NCBI RefSeq assembly: GCF_032362555.1
Contig: NC_083516.1
Coordinates: forward strand, 2,381,001-2,445,000
Reading direction: 5' to 3'
From: Amyelois transitella
Lineage: Eukaryota > Arthropoda > Insecta > Lepidoptera > Pyralidae
Length of the DNA: 64,000 bases
Of this stretch, positions 3,521-34,259 are shown piece by piece (within the stretch, counting starts at the first letter, position 1; every line of letters begins with the position of its first letter). The notes under the pieces were generated by a model. The model searched no databases and had not been told where the DNA came from. It saw nothing but the letters and a program-made list of their open reading frames with translations. The position numbers and the translations under genes were made by a program.

Positions 3521-3539
3521 ATGGATTCCGAGAATAAGG
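3521..3539 (+). CDS. Exon 1 of the exon-array gene (start codon)
   Basis: Nineteen coding bases, ATG through AAG plus one base (MDSENK), followed directly by a consensus GTGAGT donor at 3540. The phase-1 end fits exon 2 at 12231, whose first two bases complete a Gly codon. The start context is modest (C at -3, G at +4). The following 8.7-kb intron is the longest in the gene and carries a TA-flanked transposon at 10264-11215. Another distal first exon cannot be excluded. Confidence 0.6.
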
Positions 3540-9500: not shown

Positions 9501-12500
9501 AATAGTAATTATACTCATCCACATACCTTTATTGTAGAAATTACATAGTTAGCTTTGTTTGTAGTGCTCGTAAAATAATTAATTTTAATATTAATGATGA
9601 TTATGATTGCATTTCACGCCTACCGATAGACAAGAACCTGGGTGAGTCAAAAAGTTTAGATAATTCAGAAGTCGCACCCATCAGTCAGTCAATCAATTAA
9701 ATACGATATATGGTGGATTTCCGAGACTTGAAAAAAAAACAACAACATTAAGTAGGTATTATAAGTCACAAAATGTATCAAATTCCATTAGAACAATACT
9801 AACTTGATATTTTAATTTAATAAATTAAAGACAAAAATAAAATATTTTGTATTCTTAAAAACAAACAAAGTATACCTATTGGAATTTCTTGATAAAAATG
9901 GATTATACAAAAATGTAAACTTTACTCACTATTCGCGCACCGAACGGATTAAATCGATAACAAAACGATAATTGGCTCCCATTAGTTCTGAATTTTTTAT
10001 GTATGTCAATGCGGTTGGGCCACGTCATACTGTGATGTGAAAAAAGCTACCTTGACCGCTATGGAACATACAGCAGCTGGGGAAATCAATAACTGAATAG
10101 CGCAGGCTTGCCGCACACTTTTGATACATGGATCGCCGCACATCTTTCTAGTTACGAGGATTAAATAGGATGTTTCTCCCTACAAAAAATTATTAGAAGT
10201 CTCTAATATTGCCTGGTACCATTGGCAGTCTTTACTGATTAGTGCGGAGCACAAAAATCTATAGGGGAGAATAGGGTAATGGGAGCCTATTAAGGGAAAG
10301 TTTTAATAAAAATCACGTTAGTCGTCCTTTTTTTTGTATTTTTTTATTATAAACTCTTACCTTCATTATTAGAGAACATTTTAATCATAGTTATAATCAA
10401 GTACAGACATGAAATAAGGTACAATTAGCGTTTTACTAAAAAAAGTCAGTCGCTCCTATTACCCGACAGATGCGGGTAATGAGAGCCCATTTAACGCTTA
10501 TAGGGAAAATGGGAGCCATTATAATTACTATTAAAGAAAAAAGTAACAAAACGTATACTATGCATGAGATTTAGTTATTACAATTATCAATATAATAAAA
10601 CGCTTGGTTTGGCTTTTCTTCTTGGGCAAATACAGTACGTCTTCCCAGCTTAGGTGAGTTTTTGTAGCTACTGTCGAACAAATACCGCATTTTCTAATGA
10701 ATCCACTGTCCAAGAAGCTTTTGTTGTTGTCCGAGTTCTTGTACGTGGCATCTAAAAGAAAAAATAAGCATTTTATATCTCTGAACTGACTAAATGGGGC
10801 AATGGGATCGATGTCGAGTAATGAGAGCCTTACTAGGCTACCATTAGCCGCTGACCACCATTTTGAAAAGTATTGACATAACTATGTAATTGTATTCTCA
10901 ATCACAATTCAACTATTTGTACTTGTTAGTTAACGAATCTAGCGATATAATAAACATAACTACATTAAAATAAGATTATATTTTCATGCTTACCTTGATA
11001 ATGGCAATCGGCAATTTCTTGTAAGCGTGGAGCGAAAAACACACAACTGTCCCTTGTGACTAAACGAATGGCACTAACGGTTCAAGCGCGTCAGGCGAAG
11101 TTTGCCGATTGTCGACGGAAGTAGCCGAGTACCAACGATCGCGCAAATGTGTCTGCATTCCGCTCAAACACCATAGCTCCCATTGCCCGACCGCTCCCAT
11201 TACCCCACGTTCCCCTACTTCTAAAAACTTAGGTACTGCGGTACCTACTCTTTGTGTATAGGTAAATCTGAATGGTTTTTTTCACTCAAAAATGTTTAAC
11301 AGATTTTTCGCCCCAATTTGGACACTCTATATGCATATCTTAATGCAGGATCTACATTTGAGTATGTGGAGCACAAAAATTCTAACTTCTTAAATAAAAG
11401 TTAGAAAGGTACATAAAGGTATACCTGTTGTACCTCAGCTCAAAGAAATTGCAAAAACACAATAGGTAGGCATAATTTCGATAAACCTTAACTGTTCAGT
11501 TTTGGATACCGGGTCCTATTCATTTGGGTCACAAAAGTTTGAACTCTTTGCCCTGTAACTACAGAACGAATTGGAAAAGAAATAAGATGATGTACTGTGA
11601 GATCCTACCTCATAAGTGGAATAAGATGTCCGATATGATTCTCTGTCAAATAAATTGATCCCTCATCTGCTACAACATTTCTGAGACGAAGATGTAGCAA
11701 GTTTGAAGCCATCTTGTTTATTCACTAAACTTGTTTATCCCAAAACTCGTTTATGGGGACATTCGTATGCCGTTAAATTTTATAGACTGTGTCAATAAAG
11801 AGCATAAACTCGCACATATATTGGTCATTCAAAACAATGAAACAAAAATTACGATGAAAATACATACGTCGTATGCAAACAAAAGACTAGAGATGTTTGT
11901 AGGACTCTATACATAGAACTCGGAATAATATATGTATAATCAGATATTATGAAATATCGGAATAAATATAGGATAGTTCAGACTATACTGAACTGCCAAG
12001 TGATAAAGGAAAGCGCGTGACTGCCTTAAAATTAAGACTAAAGATGACTGCCACAACTATTTCCGAACTACGTAAAACGCATGATTTTCCTGAAATTTGG
12101 CAAACGAATTGTTGTAATGACGTCGGTATAGAAATTTCACATGGACATGTTTTATTTAATTTAACAATTCAGCAAGAGCTTTGATTGCTTTTAATCTGGC
12201 ATACATGTATTACAACAAAAAATTTTCCAGGGGCGTTCCGAAGCATCGGGGAGAAGACCGCTTCGCTCTTCGACCGCAAGAAGAAGGATGCTGAGCAGCT
12301 TGCTTCTGAGAAGGCCCAGGAGGCGTCCGGTGTGCTGGAAGACCAGGTGAAGAAGGCTGGGGAGCTGATCGGAGGGGCACAGAAGGCGGCAGAAGGTGCG
12401 GCCGACTCAGGTAATTCAAAGGAATTTTATATTGGTTTTTAAATATAATTTTTGTTGTCTTCGTGATTTCGTGACTCGATTTTTAAAGTTTCGATTCCCG

Positions 12501-15500
12501 TGGGGAATTATACTTAGTGAAATAGTGTCGTCTGGTTATAGTATATGTAATGTATACGCAGAAAATTTAAGCAATACAGCTGAATGTGACCTTTCAGTCT
12601 TCGGGACTTTTGACTCTGTCTACTCCGTAAGGGATAAAGACGTGATAATATGTATGTATACCCATAGAAGATCGTATGGAAACCTGTTTATTCAGGCAAC
12701 TATATAACCATAATTCAAGTTAGGTTCTTTAGTGACACAGAGATCAGAGGGCTGTAGCTCCTCTGAATCACCAGAACTACCCTCTCCTGAATCTTTTTTT
12801 CAAGGTCTTTGAGGTGGACACCGGCGTCTTCTAGGGAGGGAACAGCAGCAATAGCAAACAGAACGATTATCAAAACATTAATGTGGTTCGATAAGATGCA
12901 AGGCTCGACATCCATAAATAACTTTTTTTACCAAATATGTATATCATATCTTATCGTGTAGGTACTTAAAAACGACTTAGTACTTGAGGGCGATGTTTAG
13001 TCTGTCCAAGAGTCATTGGCCCTAATCTGTGTTAATAGACTTCAAATATGTATGTTGTATTGTACACTCTTGCGTAATAGTTGCTGTCATTGATATTATT
13101 GACACAGAATTATTTATAGCACTACATAATGATTTAGAGGTAAGATAACATACATACATACATACATAAAATCACGCCTCTTTCCCGGAGGGGTAGGCAG
13201 AGACTACCTCTTTCCACTTGCCACGATCTCTGCATACTTCTTTAGCTTCGTCCACATTCATAACGAGGTAAGATAAAATGACGTTATACGAGTAAAATAA
13301 TACTATGCAACTGATAAATTACTTTTTTTAAGATGATAATAGACTAGAATAGGGACGAAGGGCTTGTAAGCTCCAAAGTAAGTTCAAGTGTTAGGATGTT
13401 AACTTAACGAAAATTAAGTATACCTGAAAACTAGCTAGAGATTTCAGAGCTTGTTCGACTTGACAAAGACCAATTTTAATCTTGATTTGAAAATCAAACC
13501 CGTGGTTTTAGATTTACAAGCAACAACGTAGGCAATAATCAAAACAGATGTCGACAAATAAAAAAAAAGATACTTCCCGGGCGGTAAAAAAACACGACCA
13601 TAAAATGATAAGACCGTAATATTTAATTCCTCACCAGCCAACAACGCCAAGCACTCAGCTATCGATGCCCTGGACAAGGAGCTGTCGAAGGTGTCCCTGG
13701 CTGCCGGGGAAGCAAAGGACGCTGCCAGCCGCGCGGTGGCTGACGGGAAGAAGGTCGTCGACACTACTAAAGGTAGGTGTCGCGAACCGAAGAAACTATT
13801 TGTATCTGGGGCAAATCGTACTACTTTTTCAGATCAAAAACTGTACGTAGAAGACTATAAAAGAAGTGAAATTATTTAAATATTTTTAAGTTTGAAATTA
13901 ATTTTGGTTTACGTATTTTGTTTGTTATTGTTTCCATTTAATATCTATGTTTCTTTTACATTCTTTTTTTTATTATTGGTTTTTTTTATTTCTTTTTTTA
14001 ATTTACCGTATAGACACACTGGCTACTACGGCAGACAACACAAGGAAAGCGGCAGAATCTGCGGCCAACTCAGCAAGAGGTAAGTACCACAGTCATTTAA
14101 ATATTGTAAGGTACAAACCTAATTATAAGTTAATTTAAATTGCACTTTGTAGATTCTATCAATAGTACAGTAGACAACACCAAAACTGCTGCCCAATCAG
14201 CGGTGGACACTTCTAAGTCTTACGTCGACAGTGCTAAAGGTAACTGCCCCATTTTATCTATCAATTCTATTTTATGTTATTCCTCTCACGTTCTTGGCAC
14301 TTTTGTCTTACTTTGCTTCTGTTTCTCTGGCCTACTTACTTTTCCTACTTATATTCATGTCATGTGGGGTATTTATGGATTTTCTATGTATATTTGGGTG
14401 TTTGGTTTTGTAGATAAGTTTTATGGTACAGCGGATACCCCAAAAGCTGAACCGGCCGGTGATTCTGGATTGATGTCGTACGTTACTAGTGCTAAAGGTA
14501 AGTTCGATTCTTTATGTATTACTTTCATAAATTTAACTATTTAAGTAATTAAGTTACGCTCTACCTATATTTATTTTGCAAAAAGTTGTGTAGATTCAGT
14601 TTCGAATTCTATACAAAGCACGTTCGATACAACACAATGGACAGCACTATCCACTTTAGACATTATGAAATCGTATGGTACTTATACAGAACTATTTTCT
14701 ATATACATACTTATATATTTGGGTATGATTAATTGCAATATTTTTTAAAAGCCCTATTTTTAGGTTAAAAAAAAAGTAATATTTATTGATCGTTCACAAT
14801 TTCTTAATTTGTTTAAATCTTTGAATTTATAATTAGGTGTTGTAGAAAAACTTAGATTCAAATTTTTTTTTGTAATTTTTGTAAATTTTTAATTTGTAAT
14901 AGGTAGAGGTATGAACAATAATCATTAAAAACATTTTCAGGTTGACGAAAATATTTTTTAAACATAACTTTAATTATGGTTTACAATGATAATTTCGGTA
15001 TTTCGTATATATTTTGTAGATAAATTAATTGGTAAAGCGGAATGCACAAAATCGGAACCAGAGTCCGACACTGGCTTCATGTCATACGCTGCCGGTGCCA
15101 AAGGTATTTAAATTTTTCTTACTGAAGGATTTTGAAAGCTTATAAAGATTAAAAAAGATTAATTTACTTACTTAGAAATTAAAAGCAAAACCTACCAAAA
15201 GTAAATCATCAAAGTCTAGAACTGAAAGTTATTATTAATTCTAAACATATTTTTACGTACGAAATGATATTAATGATTATATTTTGATATTAATGAATAT
15301 ATATTTATTTAATTATGAATTAAAAAAAAAACTATTACTGATATTTTTAAACCTTTTTTATATTTGGGTTTTGTAGATAAATTATTTGGTACAACCGAAA
15401 CCCCAAAATCAGAACCAGAGTCCGGTACTGGCTTGATGTCATTCGCTACCAGTGCTAAAGGTATTTTAATTTAAGTAACTACATACATTAAGTAGGTATT

Positions 15501-18500
15501 TTGAAAGTTTTTAAATATTGAAAAATTATTGAGGCCGCTATGTATTTAGGTTACCAAAAGTTAAAAATCAGATCAACACCTGAAATATAAAATTGATAAT
15601 AATTAAATAATTTCATATAAAATTAAAATTTATGCGAGTTTGTTAACTTTCTCTACTTCTTTGTTTGGGTTTTTTGTAGATAAATTGTTTGGTACATCGG
15701 AAACCCCGAAATCGGAACCACAATCATCTAATACTGGTTTAATGTCATATGCTACTAGCGCAAAAGGCAAGTTTGAAAGTTTGACAAATTCTGTTCAATA
15801 AATCTGCTAGTCCAGTGGGACTTAGTTCGCTTTTCAGACCGAGAAAAGATTTTTGTGTTGTGGAATAACAATTAGTTTTTTTGTGTTCTATTAAGTTAAA
15901 AAAGAAAAAAAAATAGTTTGCTTATCAGCCTTAAACATTTTGACTGTTGTATGTGTACCTATATGTCTCGATTTTGTGCTGTACTTTTATTTTCCGTCAC
16001 GTAGGATATACTATTATTTATATAGAAATAATATTCTTTAATTTGTTTATTTTGTAGATTCGGTTTCGAACGTTGTGCACAGCACTATAGACGAAACACA
16101 AAAAAGTGCGGAATCAGCTATTGATAATGGGAAATCGTATGTTAGTACAGCAAAAGGTAATTAATTGAGGTGATTGAGTGATTGTGGAATCCGTTTAATA
16201 ATCTAAACATTTATCAACTTTACGAAATTAAATTTTTATTAATAAAAAATTAAAACAAGAGATATTTGTACCATATTGAACATTTTTTATGTCATTTGGG
16301 TGTTTTGTAGATAAATTATTTGGAACAAAAGAACCTCCAAAACCGGAACCACCGTCTGGTTTGATGTCATACGCTACCAGTGCTCAAGGCAAGTTAAGTC
16401 CAGAAGTACAGTTTACATTTTACCGTTGAAAAAAAATTAAGATAAAAGCTGCTGTTATATCTGTTCTATGAACTGTACATTGGTGTTTTTATTTAACTCG
16501 TGTAATACCCACTTGTACATATTTAATACAAGTGAGCATAACATAAAGTAAATACTCAAAATAATTATGCAAATTATCTTGTATAATCTTGTAGAAATAT
16601 TTTTATTACGCCAATTATTAGAAAATTAAACAACTCAGTCAAATTAAATTACATTAAATTCATTAATGAAAACTAAAACTTTACTTTTGGTACAATTTAT
16701 AATATCAATGTTTTACGATTGTTATATCGTTTGGGTGATTTGTAGATAAATTATTTGGAACAAAAGAACCCCCGAAACCGGAACCACCGTCTGGTTTGAT
16801 GTCATACGCTACCAGTGCTCAAGGCAAGTTAACGTACAATGTACTATACATTGATGTTCTTTCATATTAAATTAGTCTAATACCCACTTGTATATATTTA
16901 ACACAAGTGGGCATTACATAAATTAAATAATGAAAATAATTCTGCAAATTATCTTGTAGAATCAGTATCGGATGCTGTGCACAGCACTATAGACACAACG
17001 CAAGAAACAGCGCAATCTGCGCTTGATACTGGGAAATCGTATGCCTCTACAGCGAAAGGTATTTTAATAGCTTCAATTGATTCGATTATAAAATTGGAAC
17101 AAATATTTTTATTACGCCAATTATTCGAAAATTAATCAACTTCGTCAAATTAAATTACAATTCATAAATGAAAACTAAAACTTCAGTATTCATATAATTT
17201 ATAATATCAATGTTTTACAAGTGTTATGTCGATTGGGTGTTTTGTAGATAAATTATTTGGAACAAAAGAACCCCCAAAACCGGAACCACCGTCTGGTTTG
17301 ATGTCATACGCTACCAGTGCTCAAGGCAAGTTTAGATCAGAGGTACAAAGTTGGCTTTTTATCGCTGAAAAAAAAAACAAAAATCTCCTTTAACAGTTCT
17401 CTGCTTAGTGAGCTTTACGTAGATGGGCATTGATACCTTAATAACTTTGTGTTATTTCAACTGTGTTATAAAAAATAACACAGGTTTACACAATTCAAAT
17501 TGGAATTGATCGTTTAATAATTGAAAATTATCTTGTAGAATCAGTATCGAATGCTGTGCACAACACTATAGACACAACGCAAGAAACAGCGCAATCTGCG
17601 CTTGATACTGGGAAATCGTATGCCACTTCAGCGAAAGGTATTTTAATTGTCTTCGATTGATCGATTATAAAATTGGAATAAATATTTTTATTACGCCAAT
17701 TATTTGAAAATTAAACAACTCAGTCAAATTAAATTACAATTCATTAATGAAAACTAAAACTTTACTATTGGTACAATTTATAATATCAATGTTTTACGAT
17801 TGTTATATCGTTTGGGTGATTTGTAGATAAATTATTTGGAACAAAAGAACCACCTAAACCGGAACCACCGTCTGGTTTGATGTCATACGCTACCAGTGCT
17901 CAAGGCAAGTTAACGTACTATGTACTATACATTGATGTTCTTTCATATTAAATTCGTGTAATACCCACTTGTATATATTTAACACAAGTGGGCATTACAT
18001 AAATTAAATAATGAAAATAATGCTGCAAATTATCTTGTAGAATCAGTATCGGATGCTGTGCACAGCACTATAGACACAACGCAAGAAACAGCGCAGTCTG
18101 CGCTTGATACTGGGAAATCGTATGCCACTACAGCGAAAGGTATTTCCATTGTGTTCGATTGAGTGGTTGTAAAATTAGAATACCTACGTATTGCAAAATT
18201 AGGCATTTTATATGAAAACATGGAACTTAGTCACATTAAATTTGAATTTTAGAATTCATACTGAACGAAAGTAATCTGTCATGATATTTTATCAATATAC
18301 TGCGATTTTTATGTTATTTGGGTGTTTTGTAGATAAATTATTTGGAACAAAAGAACCCCCAAAACCGGAACCACCATCTGGTTTGATGTCATACGCTACC
18401 AGTGCTCAAGGCAAGTTTAGATCAGAGGTACAAAGTTGGCTTTTTATCGCTGAAAAAAAAACAAAAATCTCCTTTAACATTTCTCTGTTTATTGAGCTTT

Positions 18501-21500: not shown

Positions 21501-24500
21501 TAGAATTCATACTGAACGAAAGTAATCTGTCATGATATTTTATCAATATACTGCGATTTTTATGTTATTTGGGTGTTTTGTAGATAATTTATTTGGAACA
21601 AAAGAACCCCCAAAACCGGAACCACCATCTGGTTTGATGTCATACGCTACTAGTGCTCAAGGCAAGTTTAGATCAGAGGTACAAAGTTGGCTTTTTATCG
21701 CTGAAAAAAAAACAAAAATCTCCTTTAACATTTCTCTGCTTATTGAGCTTTACGTAGATGGGCATTGATACCTTAATAGTTTTGTGTAATTTCAACTGTG
21801 TTATAAAAAATAACACAGGTTTACACAAGTCAAATTGGAATTGATCGTTTAATTATTGAAAATTATCTTGTAGAATCAGTATCGAATGCTGTGCACAGCA
21901 CTATAGACACAACGCAAGAAACAGCGCAGTCTGCGCTTGATACTGGGAAATCGTATGCTACTTCAGCGAAAGGTATTTTAATTGTCTTCCATTGATCGAT
22001 TATAAAATTGGAATTAATATTTTTATTACGACAATTATTTGAAAATTAAACAACTCAGTCAAATTGAATTACAATTCATTAATGAAAACTAAACCTTTAC
22101 TATTGGTACAATTTATAATATCAATGTTTTACGATTGTTATATCGTTTGGGTGATTTGTAGATAAATTATTTGGAACAAAAGAACCCCCGAAACCGGAAC
22201 CACCGTCTGGTTTGATGTCATACGCTACCAGTGCTCAAGGCAAGTTAACGTACTATGTACTATACATTGATGTTCTTTCATATTAAATTCGTGTAATACC
22301 CACTTGTATATATTTAACACAAGTAGGCATTACATAAATTAAATAATGAAAATAATTCTGCAAATTATCTTGTAGAATCAGTATCGGATGCTGTGCACAG
22401 CACTATAGACACAACGCAAGAAACAGCGCAATCTGCGCTTGATACTGGGAAATCGTATGCTACTACAGCGAAAGGTATTTTAATAGCTTCAATTGATTCG
22501 ATTATAAAATTGGAACAAATATTTTTATTACGCCAATTATTCGAAAATTAATTAACTTCGTCAAATTAAATTACAATTCATAAATGAGAACTAAAACTTC
22601 AGTATTCATATAATTTATAATATCAATGTTTTACAAGTGTTATGTCGATTGGGTGTTTTGTAGATAAATTATTTGGAACAAAAGAACCCCCAAAACCGGA
22701 ACCACCGTCTGGTTTGATGTCATACGCTACCAGTGCTCAAGGCAAGTTTAGATCAGAGGTACAAAGTTGGCTTTCTATCGCTGAAAAAAAAAACAAAAAT
22801 CTCCTTTAACAGTTCTCTGCTTAGTGAGCTCTACGTAGATGGGCATTGATACCTTAATAACTTTGTGTTATTTCAACTGTGTTATAAAAAATAACACAGG
22901 TTTACACAATTCAAATTGGAATTGATCGTTTAATTATTGAAAATTATCTTGTAGAATCAGTATCGAATGCTGTGCACAGCACTATAGACACAACGCAAGA
23001 AACAGCGCAGTCTGCGCTTGATACTGGGAAATCGTATGCCACTACAGCGAAAGGTATTTTAATTGTCTTCGATTGATCGATTATAAAATTGGAATAAATA
23101 TTTTTATTACGCCAATTACTTGAAAATTAAACAACTCAGTCAAATTAAATTACAATTCATTAATGAAAACTAAAACTTTACTATTGGTACAATTTATAAT
23201 ATCAATGTTTTACGATTGTTATATCGTTTGGGTGATTTGTAGATAAATTATTTGGAACAAAAGAACCCCCGAAACCGGAACAACCGTCTGGTTTGATGTC
23301 ATACGCTACCAGTGCTCAAGGCAAGTTAACGTACTATGTACTATACATTGATATTCTTTCATATTAAATTCGTGTAATACCCACTTGTATATATTTAACA
23401 CAAGTGGGCATTACATAAATTAAATAATGAAAATAATGCTGCAAATTATCTTGTAGAATCAGTATCGGATGCTGTGCACAGCACTATAGACACAACGCAA
23501 GAAACAGCGCAGTCTGCGCTTGATACTGGGAAATCGTATGCCACTACAGCGAAAGGTATTTCCATTGTGTTCGATTGAGTGGTTGTAAAATTAGAATACC
23601 TACGTATTGCAAAATTAGGCATTTTATATGAAAACATGGAACTTAGTCACATTAAATTTGAATTTTAGAATTCATACTGAACGAAAGTAATCTGTCATGA
23701 TATTTTATCAATATACTGCGATTTTTATGTCATTTGGGTGTTTTGTAGATAAATTATTTGGAACCAAAGAACCTCCAAAACCGGAACCACCGTCTGGTTT
23801 GATGGCATACGCTACCAGTGCTCAAGGCAAGTTAAGCCCAAAGTTCGCTTTTTAGCGCTGAAATCAAAAATAATGGCTTACATATTTCCTATCTCTACTT
23901 AATGAGCTTTACGTTGATGTGCAATTATATTTTAGTTAAATTATGTAATTACTATTATGTTATAAGGATAAATACATGTTGTCAAATTAGAATTTATTGT
24001 ATAAATTCTGCAATTATCTTGTAGAATCAGTGTCGGATGCTGTGCACAGCACTATAGACACAACGCAAGAAAAAGCGCAGTCTGCGCTTGATACTGGGAA
24101 ATCGTATGCCACTTCAGCGAAAGGTATTGCAATTGTGTTTGATTGAGTAGTTGTAAAAATAAGCATAAATATTTTTGTTAACGCAAATTATATCCAAATT
24201 AGTCAACCTAGTCAAATCAAATTTAAATTCATATAGCAAACCTGAATCGATAGTAATCATAGACTTTATTTTGCAATGTTTTAAGATTTTTGTCGTTTGG
24301 GTGTTTTGTAGATAAATTATTTGGAACAAAAGAACCTCCAAAACCGGAACCACCGTCTGGTTTGATGTCATACGCTACCAGTGCTCAAGGCAAGTTAACG
24401 TACTATGTACTATACATTGATGTTATTTCTTATTTAACTCGTGTAATACCCACTTGTACATATCTAACACAAGTGGGCATTACATAAATTAAATTATGAA

Positions 24501-27500
24501 AATAATGCTGCAAATTATCTTATAGAATCAGTATCGGATGCTGTGCACAGCACTATAGACACAACGCAAGAAACAGCGCAGTCTGCGCTTGATACTGGGA
24601 AATCGTATGCTACTTCAGCGAAAGGTATTTTAATTGTCTTCGATAGATCGATTATAAAATTGAAATAAATATTTTTTATTACGCCAATTATATGAAAATT
24701 AATCAACTTCGTCAAATTAAATTACAATTCATAAATGAAAACTAAAACTTTAGGCTTTTACAATTTATTATATCGATGTTTTACGAGTGTTATGTCATTT
24801 GGGTGTTTTGTAGATAAATTATTTGGAACAAAAGAACCCCCGAAACCGGAACCACCGTCTGGTTTGATGTCATACGCTACCAGTGCTCAAGGCAAGTTAA
24901 GTTCAAAGTTCGCTTTTTAGCGCCGAAAACGAAATTCATGGCTCATATTACCTACATATGTCTGCTAAATGAGCTTTACGTCGATGTGCATTTATATCTG
25001 AATTAATTTATGTAATTACAATTGTGTTAAAAGATAGGTAATAAACATGTTAAACACAAGTCAAATTAGAATAAATTGTATAATTTCTGCAAATTATCTT
25101 GTAGAATCAGTATCGGATGCTGTGCACAGCACTATAGACACAACGCAAGAAACAGCGCAGTCTGCGCTTGATACTGGGAAATCGTATGCTACTTCAGCGA
25201 AAGGTAATTTATGTGCCTGTGAAATGAATGAGTAGGTTTCAAAATTTAGTCAAATTAATTAAGGTATGACTAATATTGAAACTAAAATAAATCTTTCGTT
25301 TTATCGTACGTCTTACGATTTTCTTTCTCGGTTTTGTAGATAAATTATTTGGCACAACGGATAGCTCAAAATCGGAACCCGAGTCGGCTGATGCTGGTTT
25401 GATGTCATATGCTGCCAGTGTTAAAGGCAAGTCTTAAATCATACATAATATAAAAATCTCGTGTCACAATGTTCGTTCCTGAACTCCTCCGAAACGGGTT
25501 GACTTGCAAACATCTATTTTTCATACCTACCTCTTGGTGATAAGGGTTGTCTTAAAAATTATTTATATGGCAAAACAACGTTGGCCTTGACAGCTATTAT
25601 TTTTTTAGGGTACATGTACGGCTAGTACCTTTAGATTATTTTCTTAAAACTATTCCATAATTTTTTTTATTGAAAAAAAATTAAAATATTTAACGGAAGA
25701 TATGAGTTAAACCCTAAAAGACGCAATATATCGCCGTTTAATTTACACAGTGATTTTTTTACCCGGTTGTTTTGTAGATAAGTTATTTGGTAAAGCGGAT
25801 TGCTTAAAATTGGAACCACAGACCGCTGATGCTGGTATGATATCATCCGCTGCCAGTGCTGAAGGCAAGTTTTTGGCTTGGGCTTTTCACGATTTTTGAT
25901 AAGGTATTTGAATGTCTTATCTTTTCTCTCCATCTATATTTTCAGTTACAACATAGTCTCGATGGAGAGACTTGATGAGACATACCTACGCCACAAGTTC
26001 TTAAATAGCTTTTCAGAAGTTACAATATTAACTCTGTGCCATATTAGATACATTCCTTCGATTGTAAATGTCTGCAGATATTCGTCTGTTTCTGGGTGTA
26101 TTGTGCTCGTCAATTTGTGTTTGTGTCGACCGGAGCTTCATGTGGGTTGTTAAGTGCTGTCCATTTATTTATTCATCCATTTTTGTGTAGAACCATAGTA
26201 TTTGTCGAAGAAATAGCCTTTTGGGAAACAGCGACATAAATATATCAGTAGTAGTAGTTAGGTGTTATGCTTGCGACTTTCTTATTTATTTAGTTTTCTT
26301 TTTTTTTTTGTAGATTCAGTATCAAATGCTGTACAAAGCACTTTAGATACAACCCAAAAAACAGCACAATCCGCGTTAGACACTGGAAAATCGTACGCTA
26401 CTTCAGCGAAAGGTATTTTAAATTGGCTAAATAAGAAGACGTTTTTACTGATTTGAACCCAATTATGATGATTGATTTATTAATTATTATATTCATGTCA
26501 ATTCTTAAACTATTATAAAAAGTTACAGTAACATTATCTATTGACACTTTCACACACGATCTAAAACAAAATGAAATAATTTTGTAGATACAGTGGCGGA
26601 TACAATTAAGGGAACAGTAGATGGTACTCAAAAAGTTGCACAAACGTCAGTTGACACTGGTCTGGGTTATGCAAACACGGTTTCAGGTATTGAACATTTT
26701 TTAAATTTGATTGTTGTGTTTAATGCCATTTTTAATGCCTTCTAATGAATTTTATTTTGTAATGACTGTGTCTTTTTCATTGCAATATTTTTACCGATTG
26801 AGCGTAAGTAGTAAAGAGTTTGTTTTTAAGGCAGGTTTACAACATCCTTGGGTTGATGATCGTTTGATTACCTATTTTCTCTAATAAGATACCTACATGT
26901 AAATGCTAGACACGAATTAATTATATTAAGTCATTGTTCTGTTTTCCTGCCCTAGAAATAGACTATAACTAAATTGATGATTATAACAATACTGCAATAT
27001 CATTTTATATTAGTATCATTCACTATCCGAATAAACTTTTTAAAATTATAATCATAAGATGTATTATATGTTGTGTTGCCATGTTGATAACTAATAATAG
27101 CTTTTGTTTTGGCTCATTAATGCTTTAGATGTAGCACAAAGCTCGATACAAATGGCAATGAACTCAGCCTACAGTGCTTTTGGAATCACGCAGTCCTATT
27201 ACGATAGCGCAAAAGGTAGGCACATGCCGCTTTATAAGTTTTATGATTATGTTTTATGTGTAATGTCTATCCTCTCGCCATTCTGTAGATATTTAGTGAA
27301 AAACTATGTTAGATTTTATTTTGGTAGTAATGCATTTATCATTACAACAGCAATCTTATCACATGAGTTTAGATTGACAGTGCCCACGTCGTTGGTAGCA
27401 TGTTTCCTATGAATGAGATGTCCGAGCTCAGAGAGTAGATACACATGTGCTAAATAAAACTAGTTAGAATGCTTGATTTTTCTTTACTTTACTAATTAGT

Positions 27501-30500
27501 TAATTGACTAATGATAAATGATTTATGACCCCGAGAATCTGCTAACTAATCACGAAAACAGCCCAAGGTCTTAACTATAATTGAATAAAAATAAAAAATT
27601 AAAACTACTATCATTTTATATATATTTTTTCTATTTTTTACATAGACTCTATAGCAAGCACAATTGATAACACAAAGCAAGCTGCACAAAATACAATTGA
27701 AACAGGCAAATCTTACGCTGATTCTGCTAAAGGTACCAATTACCTAATAGAATTATTATGATTATTTAGGTCTATATAAATGATTATTATTTTTTTGCAT
27801 TGTAGATACTGTATCGAGCACATTGCAAAGCACATTAGACACATCAAAAAATTTTGCACAAAGCACAGTTGATACTGGTAAAAGTTACGTTGATGCAGCA
27901 AAAGGTATTAATTTTATTACATTTAAAAAAAAAAATATCAAACATATAGCATACTGATTATCTGAATAAAAACATGAGTTCAATCAGTGTTTAATTATAT
28001 GATAGTGCCAAAATTTAACATTATACAATTTTTTTTAGAAGATCACTATCCTTTGAAAGTTATGCTCATGTCTTTCATTTTATGTTCATTTTGATTTGCA
28101 AATTTATGTGCTTTATGTGTTTATTTAGACACCGTCACTCACACTGTTCAAAGCACAGTCGATACCACAAAGAACGTAGCTGCAACTGCTTTTGATAAAG
28201 GCACATCCCTTGTAGGTGCTGCCAAAGGTAGAGTATAAGGTTAACCATTAACATTTCCTTTGCTGTAGTTATTTTTATAACCTAAATACGCCATCCCACG
28301 AAATATAAGTGTTTAGCAAGCATTTGTATGTAATATAAAGCTTTTTATATATTTATTTATCTGCTTTAATAAAAAATACATTGGACTTTATTGTTTCCCA
28401 AATAAATTAAAATTTGTGTAATATTTTTTTTAGTTTTGTATTTTGGTATTTTATTTTCAAAATGTTTTTAGACACAGTAACTGGTACAGTACACTCTGCA
28501 GTCGATGCTTCAAAGAATGTTGCTTCGTCCGTCTATGAAAAAGGCGCGAATTTAGTTGGCACAGCTAAAGGTAGTTTTTTTTTTAATTTATTTTGCATAT
28601 TATGTATTATATTTATAAATTTTCATCACAAAATATATTTAAAAACTTACATAAACTACCTACTTTTAGCTATAATACAAAAATAAATGCTGTCAAAAAT
28701 TCAATCTATAAATCGCTCACTCCCTGCATAATGTTAACTTGCGGGAGTGTGTTCAGAATGCTGGCAGAATATTATATATCCAGTTACTACTTTAAAAAAA
28801 AATACGTTAACTACATTCACTACATCGATGCTTAATTTATTATATTTATTTATGCCTTTGTAGGAACTGTTGAAAGTGCAGTAGATTCTACTAAATCTGC
28901 TTCACAAGAGACTGTTGATACAGGAAAGAGTTACATTGACACAGCAAAAGGTAATCTAAGGTTTCTTTTGTTACAAAATAAAGTAATAAATTATGTTACA
29001 TGTTTTATAACTATGTCTTTTAATTGTTGCTTATCAAGCAGTGCTGAGCTCAAAGTTTTCTTGAAAAAGGTAAATCATCTTTGAAATAAAGAGACAGTCG
29101 TTGATAATAATAGCATTTGTAATTAACACAAAGTCATTTTCACGTGTAGACACATTATCAAGCACCGTACATTCAGCAGTAGATGTGACTAAGAATGTTG
29201 CGTCATCCGCAGTGGAGAAGGGCACAAATTTAATTGGCACTGCTAAAGGTATATTTTATTTTATTTCACTCATATGCTCCTGTGATAATAAAAAAAAAAT
29301 ACACAAAATTTACTGCAATGAAAAAAAATATTGTATATTTTTTTTTGTCTAATATCGCTTTAACGTCATTTTTTAAGACTAGATAGTTATATTTTTTATT
29401 ATTTGAATTGATTTTGTGTATTCAAGCGCTTTATATGTTTTTCTGTAGACACCGTCGCTCATACCATTCAAAGCACAGTAGATACCACGAAGAACGTAGC
29501 TGCGACTGCTTACGATAAAGGCACATCTATTGTAGAAGCCGCTAAAGGTAGATAATATGCTTGTATAGTCAAAAACCCAATCAAGTATGAGTACATAGTA
29601 CATAGCTCTGATGGACTCAAATATATTATTTCTATACATATCTTTTTTTCATAAAGATTTGTCAAAACTTTGATTTGAAAAATTTGATTTGTCAAAACAA
29701 GCCAAAAAAAAAGTCTAATTGTGTCAAATTTCGTTGTTATACTGCAAATAAGTCTACTATTATTTATTTGTTGTAGGTATTTTCAAACTTATTTTGATAC
29801 TTACTTGTTACTTTTTTGTATTGGTAATTTGTACAGAGTACCTACTAATTTTTTTTGCTTTATTGTGTTTAATTAGTTTGTAAAGCACTATTTTAAACTT
29901 TTTTTTATTTACTAGACGTGTTTTTTTGCTATTGTAGATACAGTCTCAAATACAGTGCACAGCACAGTAGATACAACTAAAAATGCAGCAGCTTCAGTAG
30001 TTGATAAAGGCACTTCCCTTGTCGGTGCAGCTAAAGGTATCCCAAATTTACTGAGCTTAAGTATTTAAGAAAAGAATTCACTTTACAAAATTAAGTACCG
30101 GTCACTTGTAATAAACAACTTGTTTTATTATAAATGACGCACCTGTACTTAATTTTGTCATACTCATTTAAAACTTAATTGTGAAAAATATTTAAAAAAA
30201 AAGTTGTAATTACGTATTTTTGTTTACTTTTTCATTATCTATTTTATTTATTTTTAGACACTGTAGCACATACAGTGGACAGCACAAAGAACGCTGCGTC
30301 CTCTGCCGTAGATTCAGGTCTATCTTTTGTTGGAGGAGTCAAAAATACCGTAGCGAGCACAGTTCACAATACGGTTGATACTTCTAAAAATGTGGCGTCA
30401 AACGCTTATGAAAAGAGTACTTCGGTGGTTGGCGCTGCTAAAGGTGGGGTTCGAGATAAATGAGTTATTGATCATTAGAAAAGTTGAAATTTATCCGTTA

Positions 30501-33500
30501 ATTAAACCTTCCTTAGCATAAACAATATTACAAAAAAATAAGATTTAGATCTCAGTAAATTAAATTTATGATTTCATATTTTTTATAGATTATTATGTTA
30601 TTTATAACTATGCTTATTTTATTTATTTTTTATTTGCGTTTTAGATACACTTGTCAGTAGCGTACAGTCCACTGTAGATACCACTAAGAACGCAGCTTCC
30701 TCGGTTGTAGATACAGGCTCTTCTATTGTGGGATCCGTTAAAGGTAGCGATTACTGTAAATACTTTAAAATTCCTCTATTTTCCGTATTATCTCGTGCAT
30801 TTATTATTTTATTAATTTAATTTGTAGACACTGTAGCAAGCACTGTAGATACAACAAAGAACGCTGCTGCTTCAGCAGTTGAGAAAAGTACATCACTTTT
30901 GGGATCAGCGAAAGGTATTTTCTCAATTTCATGTTCAGTATAAGTGTTTGTGTATTAAGACAATATTATTGTTTTCTTATTATTATTGTTTATTATAGAT
31001 ACTGTAGCAAACACTGTACATAGCACAGTAGATGCAACTAAAAATGTAGCGTCATCCGCTTACGAGAAAAGCTCAGCTGCCGTAGGATCAGCCAAAGGTA
31101 TATTGTGTTGCAATGTTTTGTTTTAATCGTCGCTTCCTTCTGTTAATTTATTGTTTGTCCGCTTTGTAGATACATTAGCAAGTACAGTGCAAGCCACAGT
31201 TGATACAACTAAGAATATTGCAGCAACAGCTGTAGATAAAGGAAGCTCTTTAGTAGGAACCGCCAAAGGTATTAATTTGAACTGTGTGTGACTTTGAGAT
31301 CTGATATTATTTGATTTTTTGAAGATTTAATGTATAAGATAAGAAGGTACAAGGTAAGGGACAACGTTGACGAAGGTATAGTTAATGATAATGGTTTGTA
31401 TTGTTATATTACTTGGTAAAAATATGTAACTATAAGATACTCTGTTGTTATGGTACTTTATTTATATTTATACGTGACTTAGTAGTTATAACGTGCCATA
31501 GAACATTTTCCTTTACTTTATTAACCCAACCATTATTATCTATTTTTGTATTTTCACTTTTCTTTGGGTGCATGCAGTCCTTTTTTCTTCTTTTTAATTT
31601 ATTTTTCTTTTACTAACTTCTTTCTTAGATACTGTCTCAAGCACTTTCTTTAACACCCCTGAGGCAGCCGAAGAAGAATCTGAGAGCGTTATCGACACTG
31701 CTAAAGGTAATTTTAATTATCCTATATTCTCAACATTAAGTACTATGTATGTGCTTTATCTTCCTCAGGTGTTAATTACGTATTCATAATAGGTATAGTA
31801 TGCAATATAAGATAAAAATAACTATGAAAATTGCTCTAGTCTTTAATATTTCCATTATTAAGTTCTTTAACATTTTTGTGTGTATATTTTAGATAAGGTT
31901 CAGAATACATTCGTATCCACTAAGGACACAGCCCAGAAGACTGCTGAAGAATCAGCCGGTACATAGATAAAATAGATATACTTAGGTGTTGTATTTGGAA
32001 GCAAAGCTTTGAATGTTGACCAAATACACATACTGCATTAACTCGAGCCTTTGTGTTTTTAACTTAAAAAATAAGTAAACCACTATACTAATCAATAGCG
32101 TTAGGTCAGTTACATAAAGATGTCTTATCTGCAACAGGAAATTTCCGAAATTTGTCGCAGTTGACATAATTTTTACTCTATGCCAAATTTCAATGGAATC
32201 CATTCAGTAATCTTGCTTTGAAATGTTATTAAATTCTTTAACTTGCGCCTGATTGGTAAATTCGCACCGAAATTTTGTATGCCTTTGATGTGTGTAAGCA
32301 ATAACAGGCTCTAACAAAAACAAGAAAGCCGTTGCATTTTTTTAGGTGTGTGTTTATAACTATAAAATCAGTGATTTTTAAATTGGTAAATAGTTTACCA
32401 TTCATAGATAAGTAATTAGAGTGGGTCACGTAGAAAAGTACCTATACCGCCTTCGTATCGTGGACATACAGAAGGTATCACTTTATATGTAGCCCACTGT
32501 ACTTACTACTTACTTATACATATATTCAAAATTAGAAAAAAAATTGAAATAACACAAACTTTAAGCTAAAATTAACAAATAGTTTTTTTTTTGTTGATTT
32601 ATGTCTTCCGGAGAGATTTTAAAAGTTACAGACGCATCGAATAATTATTATGCAATTTTGAATTTCATAGACTTTTCATTTTGTATGTACTTACTCGATC
32701 TAATTTTTGAAATATTGATGATATTTTTTTCATCTTAGATACTATCAACTCGACGGTAGACTCCACAAAGAAGGCTGCGGAAGATGCGCGTGCGCAGGCT
32801 CTGAAGGCCGCCGAGGACGCCAAGGAGAAGGCAAGGCAGACCGCCGAGGCCGCCAGAAATGAAGCTAAGAGAGTTGCTAGTGAGTAGCTAGATAATATCG
32901 TGAAGTCTTGGGTATCGTGTATTTTGGATAAGAAGTAGTTTTTACCTAAGACATTGCTTAGTGGCAATTTCTTCAGTGGTGTCTAAAGTCATCAATTGGT
33001 AACCTAACCTGTATATATGTCAGTTAAATTTATATAATTCAGAGAAATCCGAATTTATGTATGTCAGTTGCTTTTTTTAAATTTAGGTATTCATGATAAA
33101 TCGTGTATGACAATTTATCAAGTAGGTACTTAAATACCTGCGTTTTCGCCTGCGTGTTTTTGTCTTGTCACCTCCAATTCACCATTTAAATTCTATGATT
33201 AGAAGACAACAAACATAGGTACTTTTTTCTTCCTAGACAACCATTCCCAATTTAGATAATTATACAAATAACTGTATGATGTAGAAGGCAAGGCAAACGT
33301 AGCTACTATATACGTAATAACTTAAAATAATATCTACAGACTCAGCCGTAGAAGAGTCCAAGAAAGCGGCCGAGAAAGCGGCGTCAGACGCCTCCAATGC
33401 CGTCCACAGCACCGTTGACAACACCCTGAAGAGAGTGGAGCACGCTGCCGACGAGGGCCTGAAAAACGCCGGCAATGTCGTCGATGGGAAGATCAAGGAG

Positions 33501-34096
33501 GCCGACAAATACTTGAACGAGAAGAGAGAGAATGTAGGTTTATATATGTCCACAATATAACATCGTCATCATTCATATAAACACTTCTTTATCCTTTGCT
33601 GGGTAGATAGAGCCAGCAGTGTTGAAAGACTGACTGGCCGCGTTCAGCTGTGAGGCTTTGATAGAATTGAGATTTAAATAGTGACAGGTAACTAGGTAGC
33701 CCATCGCCTGAAAGAAGAATCCCAAGTTCATAACCTTATCCCTTAGCCGCCTTTTACGACGCCTTTTATTTTTTATATTAGTGCCGGGAACCACACGGCA
33801 CATACCAGAATTTATGTAACTCTCTGTGATATTTATGTATTGTGGTTGTACCCTCCATTGTTATGCTTTGGGACCAGTCTTCGATATTCTCAACTCTTGC
33901 AATCCAAAGCCAGGATTCATTCAGCCACTGTCACTACCAATGAATCTTTGTTCAGAGGAAATTGGGAGCAGTTGCATAATGTGTTTTTTTTTTTTACTTT
34001 TAACAGTTGGTGTCAGGCCTGTCATCAGCAGCTCATGATGGTAAAGAGGGCGCTGCTGGTCTACTGGGCAAAGGCCTCGGGGCTTTCTCCAAGTAG
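3521..34096 (+). CDS. Giant 11-mer-repeat amphipathic-helix protein (66 coding exons)
   Basis: Unrecognised as a named gene. Joining every exon I can define (6,201 nt) gives one open frame of 2,066 residues from ATG 3521 to TAG 34096. The ends are unique, charged helical segments (first ~111 and last ~141 residues); the middle is made of repeated modules. The commonest module has 33 residues, three 11-residue blocks each opening with Asp (for example DTTQETAQSAL), rich in Ser, Thr, Ala and Lys. Such 11-mer helices are known from perilipin-4, LEA group 3 and synuclein-type proteins, which coat lipid droplets or membranes or protect against drying. No signal peptide or membrane segment is visible, so a cytosolic, lipid-surface-binding protein is the inference. 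Nearly every internal exon has phase 1-1, so exon skipping keeps frame and real isoforms may be shorter. The gene structure is well supported; the function is not. Confidence 0.8.
3855..4095 (-). repeat. TATG-tailed SINE, near full length
   Basis: Reverse-orientation copy bounded on the right by the family head 'GTGCCGGGAACCACACGGCAC'-type sequence; in intron 1 of the exon-array gene. Confidence 0.75.
4756..4870 (-). repeat. Non-LTR retrotransposon 3' end fragment
   Basis: Begins with a T-rich stretch ('GCTTTATTGTTCACAAAAAG') and continues to 'AAGGCGGGCTTATCC', a 3' UTR type I recognise from lepidopteran LINEs inserted in reverse. No open reading frame remains. Confidence 0.5.
4975..5022 (-). 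repeat. TATG-tailed SINE, short fragment
   Basis: About 48 bp matching the 'AGACAGAGCCAACAGTCTCG' part of the SINE in reverse. Confidence 0.55.
5030..10260. other. Intron 1 of the exon-array gene: no gene seen
   Basis: AT-rich sequence without a supported coding exon. Short open frames here (for example at 5702-5899, 6803-6988, 8772-8954) have no splice context, no recognisable domain and no repeat of the downstream modules. A small direct duplication of 'AATTTCAATGATCGA' occurs near 7075-7110. Confidence 0.6.
10264..11215. mobile_element. TA-flanked non-autonomous DNA transposon (~952 bp)
   Basis: The two ends are inverted copies sharing GGGGA at the tip and then GGGTAATGGGAGC, and each is bordered by TA (10262-10263 and 11216-11217), the target duplication used by Tc1/mariner-pogo type elements. 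The GGTAATGGGAGC motif recurs inside in both orientations (about 10460-10520, 10795-10835, 11170-11205), as expected for subterminal transposase-binding repeats. No transposase frame is visible, so it is either non-autonomous or badly decayed. Confidence 0.6.
12231..14497 (+). CDS. Exons 2-6 of the exon-array gene (N-terminal part)
   Basis: Five exons, all phase 1-1, with AG acceptors and GT donors: 12231-12410 (60 codons), 13638-13772 (45), 14014-14079 (22), 14153-14239 (29) and 14414-14497 (28). Exons 2 and 3 encode a non-repeated, charged, Ala/Lys/Glu-rich helical region and are visibly GC-rich. Exons 4 and 5 are the first 11-mer-block modules (DNTRKAAESAA and DNTKTAAQSAV). Exon 6 is the first B-type module, starting DKFYGTADTPK and ending with a Ser-Tyr-x-Thr-Ser-Ala-Lys motif; unlike most later B exons it has a normal GTAAGT donor. 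Confidence 0.8.
12575..12663 (+). repeat. TATG-tailed SINE, 3' fragment
   Basis: Right end of the SINE ('AGCTGAATGTGACCTTTCAG' to 'ATATGTATGTAT') in intron 2 of the exon-array gene. Confidence 0.65.
13146..13268 (-). repeat. Non-LTR retrotransposon 3' end with TATG tail
   Basis: Reverse copy of the same 3' end seen at 58880-59185: (CATA)n then 'AAAATCACGCCTCTTTCCCG' and the complement of the RT C-terminal coding tail. Heavily 5'-truncated. Confidence 0.7.
14595..14678 (+). pseudogene. Degenerate A-type exon
   Basis: After an intact TGTGTAG acceptor the sequence reads as an A module (DSVSNSIQSTF, then a DTTQ block) but the final 11-mer is lost and the expected AAAG|GT donor is missing. A weak alternative donor (TATG|GTACTT) near 14677 would keep phase 1, so use as a shortened exon cannot be excluded. 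I left it out of the protein model. Confidence 0.5.
15020..25864 (+). CDS. Exons 8-46 of the exon-array gene: alternating A/B module array
   Basis: B exons (78-87 nt, DKLFG..., Pro-rich centre, ending SYATSAQ/K): 15020-15103, 15377-15460, 15680-15766, 16311-16388, 16746-16823, 17248-17325, 17827-17904, 18333-18410, 18911-18988, 19417-19494, 19994-20071, 20496-20573, 21078-21155, 21584-21661, 22162-22239, 22664-22741, 23243-23320, 23749-23826, 24312-24389, 24814-24891, 25340-25426, 25778-25864. A exons (all 99 nt, 33 residues): 16058-16156, 16960-17058, 17539-17637, 18041-18139, 18623-18721, 19125-19223, 19706-19804, 20208-20306, 20790-20888, 21292-21390, 21874-21972, 22376-22474, 22955-23053, 23457-23555, 24025-24123, 24526-24624, 25105-25203. 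All are phase 1-1. A exons have GT donors; B exons from 15680 on have GCAAGT donors. Copies are almost identical between 17 and 25 kb. Confidence 0.85.
17461..17483 (+). other. Intronic inverted repeat, type 2
   Basis: CTGTGTTAT, five A residues, then ATAACACAG: a perfect 9-bp inverted repeat in the GC-AG intron between the B exon at 17248 and the A exon at 17539. It recurs at the same place in every second GC-AG intron of the recently amplified units but is lost in the older intron after 23826. Confidence 0.5.
17964..17992 (+). other. Intronic inverted repeat, type 1
   Basis: CCCACTTGT ... ACAAGTGGG, a 9-bp inverted repeat about 50 bp before the A exon at 18041, in the other class of GC-AG intron. 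The same pair is present in most copies, including the outlying introns near 16510 (one mismatch) and 24450, and carries one mismatch near 22325. Confidence 0.5.
26314..31958 (+). CDS. Exons 47-64 of the exon-array gene (older, diverged modules)
   Basis: Eighteen phase 1-1 exons with normal GT donors: 26314-26412, 26588-26686, 27129-27215, 27646-27732, 27806-27904, 28129-28227, 28472-28570, 28864-28950, 29150-29248, 29449-29547, 29938-30036, 30258-30443, 30645-30743, 30828-30914, 30999-31097, 31170-31268, 31629-31706, 31893-31958. Most encode 33 residues; the 87-nt exons encode 29, lacking four residues of the first 11-mer. Here the middle block is typically STVDTTKNVA and the exon ends GTSLVGAAK, close in style to perilipin-4 repeats. 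The exon at 30258 carries a 29- plus a 33-residue module without an intron. Exon 31629 is acidic (EAAEEESES). No B modules occur in this part. Confidence 0.82.
32739..34096 (+). CDS. Exons 65-67 of the exon-array gene (C-terminal part and stop)
   Basis: Exons 32739-32879 (47 codons, Ala/Lys/Glu-rich helix), 33340-33533 (begins phase 1, ends phase 0 at AAT|GTAGGT) and 34007-34096 (29 residues, ending GLLGKGLGAFSK then TAG). The exon at 33340 still holds an 11-mer-like stretch (VHSTVDNTLKRV) before a charged helix. These exons are GC-rich, like exons 2-3 and unlike the AT-rich array, and the last junction is the only phase-0 one in the gene. The intron at 33534-34006 contains a reversed SINE. 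Confidence 0.8.
33577..33803 (-). repeat. TATG-tailed SINE, near full length
   Basis: Reverse copy inside the last intron of the exon-array gene, ending at the head sequence 'GTGCCGGGAACCACACGGCA'. Confidence 0.75.
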
Positions 34097-34244: not shown

Positions 34245-34259
34245 AATAAATGGAATAAA
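34245..34259 (+). terminator. Poly(A) signals of the exon-array gene
   Basis: Two AATAAA hexamers (34245-34250 and 34254-34259) about 150 bp after the stop codon at 34096, in the sequence 'TTTAATAAATGGAATAAACG'. Confidence 0.6.

Follow-up and report, generated by a model that had tools for sequence, protein, structure and literature searches.

A predicted 66-exon moth gene for a putative giant amphipathic-helix protein resembling the repeats of perilipin-4

One of the described systems closest to the locus reported here is vertebrate perilipin-4 (Plin4), in which a giant amphipathic helix is built from 33-residue repeats; in human PLIN4, 31 repeats of 33 amino acids (aa) all lie in exon 3 (PMC7360652). 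Targeting of Plin4 to lipid droplets grows with the number of repeats: 66 residues remain cytosolic, 132 or 264 residues reach some droplets and 660 residues reach all of them (PMC5889406). Here we analyse a window of 64,000 nucleotides (nt) of the moth Amyelois transitella (NC_083516.1, positions 2,381,001 to 2,445,000; coordinates below are those of the window), in which a first-pass annotation had placed a many-exon gene for a protein with perilipin-4-like modules. The contrast it drew with the single repeat exon of perilipin-4 holds. We favour, as reasonably probable overall, the view that this is a single gene and a very probable orthologue of silkworm BmPlin4, encoding a predicted cytosolic giant amphipathic-helix coat of lipid droplets that has grown by exon duplication, in parallel to Plin4.

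The predicted gene was rebuilt as 66 exons between 3521 and 34096 (+), giving 6,201 nt including the stop codon and 2,066 aa with one terminal stop, in agreement with the totals of the first-pass annotation. These totals and its outer coordinates were known beforehand, and the exons were selected by eye from candidates that were open, compatible in phase and bounded by an AG acceptor and a GT (115 candidates) or GC donor. All 65 acceptors are AG and every donor is GT or GC; the donors of exon 47 (CAG/GTATTG, with the slash at the exon end) and exon 63 (CCG/GTACAT) are weak. Introns 1 to 64 are in phase 1 and intron 65 is in phase 0, and exons 2 to 64 are each of phase 1-1. Intron lengths range from 72 to 8,691 nt, all of them below 800 nt except introns 1 and 2.

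The repeated exons form two classes (Table 1). A-type exons encode 33 residues in 28 of the 66 exons and otherwise 29, 22 or, once, 62 residues. The 33-residue exons contribute 924 of the 2,066 residues (45%), so that the earlier description of the protein as mostly 33-residue modules was too generous; it also passed over the second class, 23 proline-rich B-type exons of 26-29 residues (613 aa) with the common form DKLFGTKEPPKPEPPSGLMSYATSAQ. Likewise, the statement that each 11-mer is led by Asp is right for position 12 of the 33-mers (D in 28 of 28) and fails for position 1, which is mostly E (16 of 28, with D in 12), and for three copies at position 23 (D in 25 of 28, E in 3). The 17 recent B modules contain 84 prolines and have a mean hydrophobic moment of 0.16. 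By eye, a shared SYxTSAK-like end indicates a probable origin of the B-type exons from an A exon of 29 residues. The order of the modules is N-terminal pieces (exons 1-3), A (4-5), old B (6-9), A (10), two B (11-12), alternating A and B up to exon 43, B (44-45), A (46-61) and, finally, degenerate modules and unique ends (62-66). Besides the B class, 20 GC donors and a 67th exon-like piece at 14594-14677 go beyond what had been annotated before.

From profile matches, constraint among copies, the divergence of exons relative to introns and a protein match at exon 65 we conclude that the exons are coding; their module copies show purifying selection. Both strands together were searched as 2,059 stop-free segments, in which a profile of 19 A exons and one of 10 B exons gave 51 and 42 matches, respectively, at E ≤ 10. 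An in-frame modelled exon was present in 41 of the segments matched by the A profile and in 41 of those matched by the B profile (35 and 23 at E ≤ 1e-3). Together the two profiles recover 63 of the 66 modelled exons, missing exons 1, 2 and 66; outside the modelled exons, they found the exon-like relic at 14594 and ten matches with E ≥ 2. Summed over all, non-independent pairs, the per-site ratio of nonsynonymous to synonymous differences (pN/pS) is 0.087 for 16 recent B exons, an approximately eleven-fold synonymous excess per site, and 0.45 for 16 recent A exons, while ten old 33-mers gave a pS of 0.68 and a pN of 0.27. In two groups of recent half-units (from one B exon to the next), exons diverge by 1.5-2.8% and introns by 3.0-21.1%. 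Exon 65 is identical in 54 of 70 residues to P0001, a 202-residue protein call from another source, and the match stops no more than 3 residues from the exon ends.

The hydrophobic moment of exons 46-61 has its maximum at 98.5 degrees per residue, close to the 98.18 degrees of a 3-11 helix, and reaches 0.198 at the latter angle, where none of 1,000 shuffles exceeded 0.094. In ten old A modules, the hydrophobic fraction is 0.361, the aromatic fraction 0.021, the charged fraction 0.185 and the moment 0.305. The published values for human Plin4 are 0.35, 0.002, 0.15 and 0.257 (PMC5889406 Table 1), and 11 Plin4 33-mers from the mammalian protein P0002 gave 0.333, 0.000, 0.149 and 0.249 in the same computation as ours; the perilipin-4-like helix type proposed in the first-pass annotation is thus borne out in composition and moment. 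The 566 proline-free residues of weak 3-11 helix with few aromatics that include exons 46-61 are what a giant helix of the Plin4 type calls for. Single-sequence AlphaFold, run with no alignment, predicted exon 57 as one helix with a predicted local distance difference test (pLDDT) score of 95.8 and exon 65 also as a single helix, which we weigh lightly because such sequences readily give helix. On the Kyte-Doolittle scale, the highest average over 19-residue windows is 0.71, and therefore no membrane span is predicted. Relative to the period of the helix, an exon of 22 or 33 residues shifts the helical phase by 0 degrees, one of 26 by +33, one of 29 by -33 and one of 28 by -131.

A link to lipid storage comes from the silkworm, where a 2025 study describes BmPlin4 as 'perilipin-4' (XM_021348604.2; PMC12025131). 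Its mRNA was higher in one silkworm egg type than in another, and knockdown by CRISPR (clustered regularly interspaced short palindromic repeats) in BmN cells lowered the oil-red lipid-droplet content and left viability unchanged (PMC12025131). The forward primer used for quantitative polymerase chain reaction (qPCR) of BmPlin4 matches 18 of 20 positions at 32812 in exon 64, where both species read EDAKEK, and the reverse primer matches 18 of 20 at 33492 in exon 65, with IKDADK against IKEADK. Both sites are the best in the window and stand in the correct order and strand, for a predicted product of 240 nt from the spliced and 700 nt from the genomic sequence; 40 shuffles reached at most 15 matches. 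Guide 1 of the knockdown matches in 16 of 20 positions, and one of its frames reads NTKKAA, which is module-like. C-terminal exons are thereby common to both species as far as the primers go, and the moth gene is very probably the orthologue of BmPlin4. From this probable identity it follows that the gene would be transcribed in the silkworm and touch lipid storage there, in line with the earlier guess of a lipid-droplet role, which the knockdown of the very probable orthologue favours. The companion claim that no such insect gene had been described is not supported, since the silkworm gene is in print; its layout is not described in words in the main text of that study, in which exon, intron, repeat, 11-mer and helix do not occur (PMC12025131). 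Nor was such a layout in an insect described in the listed titles and abstract openings of the literature surveyed, which mostly lay outside subscription journals. Table 2 of the silkworm study gives accessions for seven other Lepidoptera and Drosophila (PMC12025131). Separately, a firebug watery saliva protein, Pyap00961, carries the annotation 'perilipin-4-like' (PMC12825922), a label that may name the helix type by likeness across insects.

Taken together, these properties fit a coat of the following kind. The A modules would be loose in solution and fold into a 3-11 helix on the monolayer of a lipid droplet. Single A modules would bind weakly, with a long row providing avidity, as reported for Plin4, and the 541-residue proline-free run of A modules in exons 46-61 would form the principal coating helix. 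Across the middle third of the protein, the proline-rich B modules would split the helix into 33-residue pieces with hinges between them. By analogy with Plin4, the length of the array may set droplet affinity and the proline-rich modules the amount of continuous helix. Since the phase-1 frame and the helical phase are both preserved by A exons of 22 or 33 residues, gain, loss or skipping of such an exon leaves the amphipathic face unturned; with exons neutral to frame and face, copy number can drift by unequal crossing-over and would tune length and affinity. The origin would then be exon duplication in the moth, as opposed to repeat growth inside one exon in vertebrate Plin4.

Several observations speak against such a coat, or against parts of it. 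Of the old B exons, three have 28 residues and so turn the helical phase by 131 degrees. Net charge per 33 residues is -2.5 in recent and -0.3 in old A modules versus about +1 in Plin4, and Plin4 changed to a net charge of -1 was lost from droplets unless its hydrophobicity was raised (PMC5889406); mean hydrophobicity is 0.125-0.184 here versus 0.28 in Plin4. With the B modules left in, the moment of exons 10-45 remains coherent (0.204 at 97.6 degrees), so that the amphipathic face need not be lost at B modules, whose prolines may nonetheless kink the helix. On the silkworm side, the match consists of two 20-nt primers and not of the full record, guide 2 matches in 13 of 20 positions, which is within chance, and the knockdown is a single cell-line experiment (PMC12025131).

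Resemblance to perilipin-4 could also mean descent from it, the moth gene being a true perilipin-4 orthologue with ends diverged past recognition. Galago perilipin-4 is the top protein-database match (E 2.7e-15, 27% identity), and the perilipin family PF03036 scores 37.9 bits over exons 46-61 against a cut-off of 33. The best stretch, however, covers only profile positions 87-169, and Rv1893-like and SH3BP5 likewise exceed their own Pfam cut-offs on the same query. The Plin4 controls, the mammalian P0002 and P0006, scored 203 and 152 bits with their best stretches at profile positions 173-400 and 295-399, in the C-terminal part, whereas the ends of the moth protein stay below every family cut-off. 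Exons 62-66 gave no Pfam match at E ≤ 0.01 that would indicate the C-terminal four-helix bundle; exons 1-4 (133 aa) gave none for a PAT domain at the same threshold, a result to be read with the best stretch of the controls also lying elsewhere, which leaves the detectability of PAT unproven. The joined ends yielded only weak Pfam matches below the cut-offs, such as Phasin and Apolipoprotein, and sequence searches of the PDB returned nothing convincing, with best E values of 0.54 and 0.017 for the two ends; placement of the ends in a repeat-free family, which the first-pass annotation had named as fatal to its reading, was thus not observed. When 10 of our 28 33-mers were slid along the 11 of P0002, the BLOSUM score was 34.2, 27.4 and 17.5 at shifts of 22, 0 and 11, and mean identity was 0.251, 0.237 and 0.196 at shifts of 0, 22 and 11, with shift 0 aligning the DTTK motifs. 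On these scores, the 11-residue register is common to the moth protein and Plin4, and no single 33-residue register is clearly preferred. Direct homology with vertebrate Plin4 is hence disfavoured by the controls for the end domains and by the lack of a clear 33-residue register, with identity slightly on the side of the DTTK register. Judged by domain, the moth protein falls outside the perilipins; the resemblance to vertebrate Plin4 is probably convergent, and we regard orthology as highly improbable.

The other rivals concern what the helix does and whether it is made at full length. One of them, a stress protectant like the late embryogenesis abundant (LEA) proteins, would be an 11-mer protein without a fold until drying or freezing induces one, and would serve to protect membranes or enzymes. 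It would suit the 11-residue repeats, the low hydrophobicity and the strong A/S/T/K/D bias, and the six protein matches weaker than the galago protein (a second mammalian perilipin-4, a chytrid protein and unnamed repeat proteins) include one named chytrid and two unnamed proteins whose similar repeats we read as LEA-like. Against this stand the Pfam searches with three query pieces, in which no LEA family appeared at E ≤ 1, the best database match, which is a perilipin-4, and the silkworm knockdown, which altered lipid droplets and not viability (PMC12025131); such a role is improbable. Coating of another membrane (plasma membrane, vesicles or endoplasmic reticulum) in the manner of alpha-synuclein, with the droplet loss on knockdown being indirect, also appears unlikely to us. 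The moment of the old A modules (0.305) is near the 0.30 of alpha-synuclein (PMC5889406 Table 1) and Plin4 is also found at the cell periphery (PMC5889406), but a net charge near zero to negative disfavours anionic bilayers, and the knockdown reduces droplet content (PMC12025131). The rival that we take most seriously, while still doubting it, is a usual mRNA much shorter than the model, which skips either the greater part of the alternating array or the B exons altogether and leaves the 2,066-residue protein as at most a minor isoform. Each of exons 2 to 64 is frame-neutral, so that frame does not forbid skipping; two exons have weak donors, and there are 20 GC donors, which other animals are known to use in regulated splicing (PMC2490688). 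Yet the recent B exons are strongly constrained (pN/pS 0.087), and the frames are open in all modelled copies, which is not expected of unused exons.

In the search for relatives elsewhere, three protein searches returned one match (P0001; 7,996 scored), none among 112 candidates, and seven matches (7,989 scored). None of the seven is named as insect and four are unnamed, with length limits that may exclude full-length insect records. One scan of viral contigs yielded no relative, and apolipoprotein PF01442 reached 22 bits against a cut-off of 90. In the moth's own genome, a six-frame search at E ≤ 0.001 in which only the best candidates were scored placed inside the gene both matches listed for the N-terminal query, with no other match to exon 2, and all 35 listed for a B-A-B query.

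Read along the recent array, the successive half-units are of types a b c b' c b' a b c b' a b c d a'. Over about 500-580 nt that include the introns, copies of the same type (a, b, b' or c) share 97-100% identity; type a' agrees with a at 91-92%, and d with the remaining types at 75-78%. Near-identity that extends through the introns points to array expansion through recent unequal crossing-over of exon pairs. The locus reads like one that has lost modules too, with the relic exon at 14594 and with intron 11, which by eye resembles the scar of a deleted A exon. Eight B-to-A introns of 136 nt (16824-24525; after exons 12, 16, 20, 24, 28, 32, 36 and 40) have unusually stable folds, with z values of -3.5 to -6.2 (30 shuffles each); that of intron 12 is the hairpin CCCACTTGT...ACAAGTGGG. 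Elsewhere z is -1.8 to 1.0 in the longer b-type introns and -3.7 in the A-to-B intron 43, which is also of 136 nt. The stable folds could bring splice sites together or be remnants of a mobile element.

GC donors, all AAG/GCAAGT, follow 20 of the 23 B exons and occur in 0 of the 42 other introns (Fisher p 6e-14, overstated as the copies are related). Only a small fraction of all donors are of this kind, and a connection with regulated splicing has been made, for example in C. elegans let-2 (PMC2490688). Selection for them was considered and set aside: by parsimony, 3 changes occurred at the donor site versus 2 and 3 at two comparable fourfold sites, and one ancestral mutation spread by duplication suffices for all 20, so no selection is demonstrated. 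A speculative and, in our judgement, quite unlikely extension is that the GC donors make the proline-rich hinge exons optional as a class, switching with the frame kept between a string of short helices and an uninterrupted helix of about 1,100 residues. Without B, exons 10-61 encode 1,102 residues whose moment, 0.245 at 98.4 degrees, is coherent, and a B-skipped form would therefore make a good continuous helix. Against this, exons 10-45 retain their moment of 0.204 with B included, and the donors are explained by a single GC mutation and duplication. Were hinge exons skipped in this way, splicing would control the continuity of the coating helix and hence droplet affinity.

If the droplet-coat reading is right, a 33-residue 3-11-helix coat arose twice, by exon duplication in moths and by repeat growth in one exon in vertebrates, and two origins open a comparison of why 33 residues recur. 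The lepidopteran 'perilipin-4' would then be no perilipin by domain, and Plin4/PPAR biology transferred by name would rest on a possibly convergent likeness. Exon blocks that are 97-100% identical further suggest that individuals differ in copy number, a variation that would provide a natural test of helix length against droplet binding.

Table 1. Coordinates of the predicted gene and associated features in the window.
Feature	Position	Strand	Description
Exon 1	3521..3539	+	MDSENK, six codons; followed by 8,691-nt intron
Exon 2	12231..12410	+	Unique N-terminal piece, 60 aa
Exon 3	13638..13772	+	N-terminal piece, 45 aa
Exons 4, 5	14014-14079, 14153-14239	+	First A-type modules, 22 and 29 aa
Exons 6-9	14414-14497, 15020-15103, 15377-15460, 15680-15766	+	Old B-type (proline-rich), 28-29 aa; donors GT (exons 6-8) and GC (exon 9)
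A-type relic or optional 67th exon	14594-14677	+	Between exons 6 and 7; donor ATG/GTACTT; profile E 6.6e-9
Exon 10	16058..16156	+	A-type, 33 aa
Exons 11-43, recent array	16311..25203	+	B (26 aa, GC donor) and A (33 aa) exons
Recent B exon starts, first part	16311, 16746, 17248, 17827, 18333, 18911, 19417, 19994, 20496	+	
Recent B exon starts, rest	21078, 21584, 22162, 22664, 23243, 23749, 24312, 24814	+	
Recent A exon starts, first half	16960, 17539, 18041, 18623, 19125, 19706, 20208, 20790	+	
Recent A exon starts, second half	21292, 21874, 22376, 22955, 23457, 24025, 24526, 25105	+	
Intron 11	16389..16745	+	357 nt, separates two adjacent B exons
Exons 44, 45	25340-25426, 25778-25864	+	Old B-type, 29 aa, GC donors
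Exons 46-61	26314..31268	+	A-type modules, 541 residues, within 566-residue proline-free stretch
Starts of exons 46-53	26314, 26588, 27129, 27646, 27806, 28129, 28472, 28864	+	
Starts of exons 54-61	29150, 29449, 29938, 30258, 30645, 30828, 30999, 31170	+	
Exon 57	30258-30443	+	Two modules, 62 aa (33+29)
Exons 62, 63	31629-31706, 31893-31958	+	Degenerate modules preceding the C-terminal end
Exon 64	32739..32879	+	Charged helix; BmPlin4 forward primer site (32812)
Exon 65	33340..33533	+	BmPlin4 reverse primer site (33492); P0001 match
Exon 66	34007..34096	+	Includes stop codon
AATAAA signals	Two at 34245..34259, third at 34355	+	Offsets 149, 158 and 259 from 34096

Elsewhere in the window, pieces with UBA and zf-UBP domains lie at 40497-48971 (-), which we take to be a likely USP5-type ubiquitin hydrolase; between the UBA and zf-UBP pieces, a tandem array at 45215-45685 has 5.3 copies of an 88-bp unit with 94% matches. 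A piece at 61698-61958 (+) encodes a glutathione S-transferase (GST) C-terminal domain, and another at 54009-54401 (+) is GST-like by eye yet has no family match. An uninterrupted open stretch of 412 residues at 51333-52568 (+) contains several hydrophobic runs, with TMEM174 below its threshold (17 versus 27 bits).

In layout only, the gene recalls elastin, in which many small modular exons encode two alternating domain classes, most with their own exon (PMC8875079), and the PEVK region of titin, where exon duplication is combined with variation through alternative splicing (PMC6469411). Both differ in that neither is an amphipathic helix coat; a sequence relation is not expected and none was looked for. 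In helix type, LEA group 3 proteins have 11-residue repeats and a 3-11 helix that folds on lipid. Alpha-synuclein and the apolipoproteins also combine 11-residue repeats with 3-11 helices folding on lipid (PMC5889406). The moth protein and vertebrate Plin4 have in common a giant 3-11 amphipathic helix, predicted here, with 33-residue repeats, few aromatics, low charge, a similar moment and a DTTK-type motif. Plin4 alone has a C-terminal perilipin domain and a net charge of about +1 per repeat, whereas the moth protein is distinguished by approximately one exon per repeat, a charge of -0.3 to -2.5, ends without a family match and the proline-rich modules that alternate with its helical repeats.

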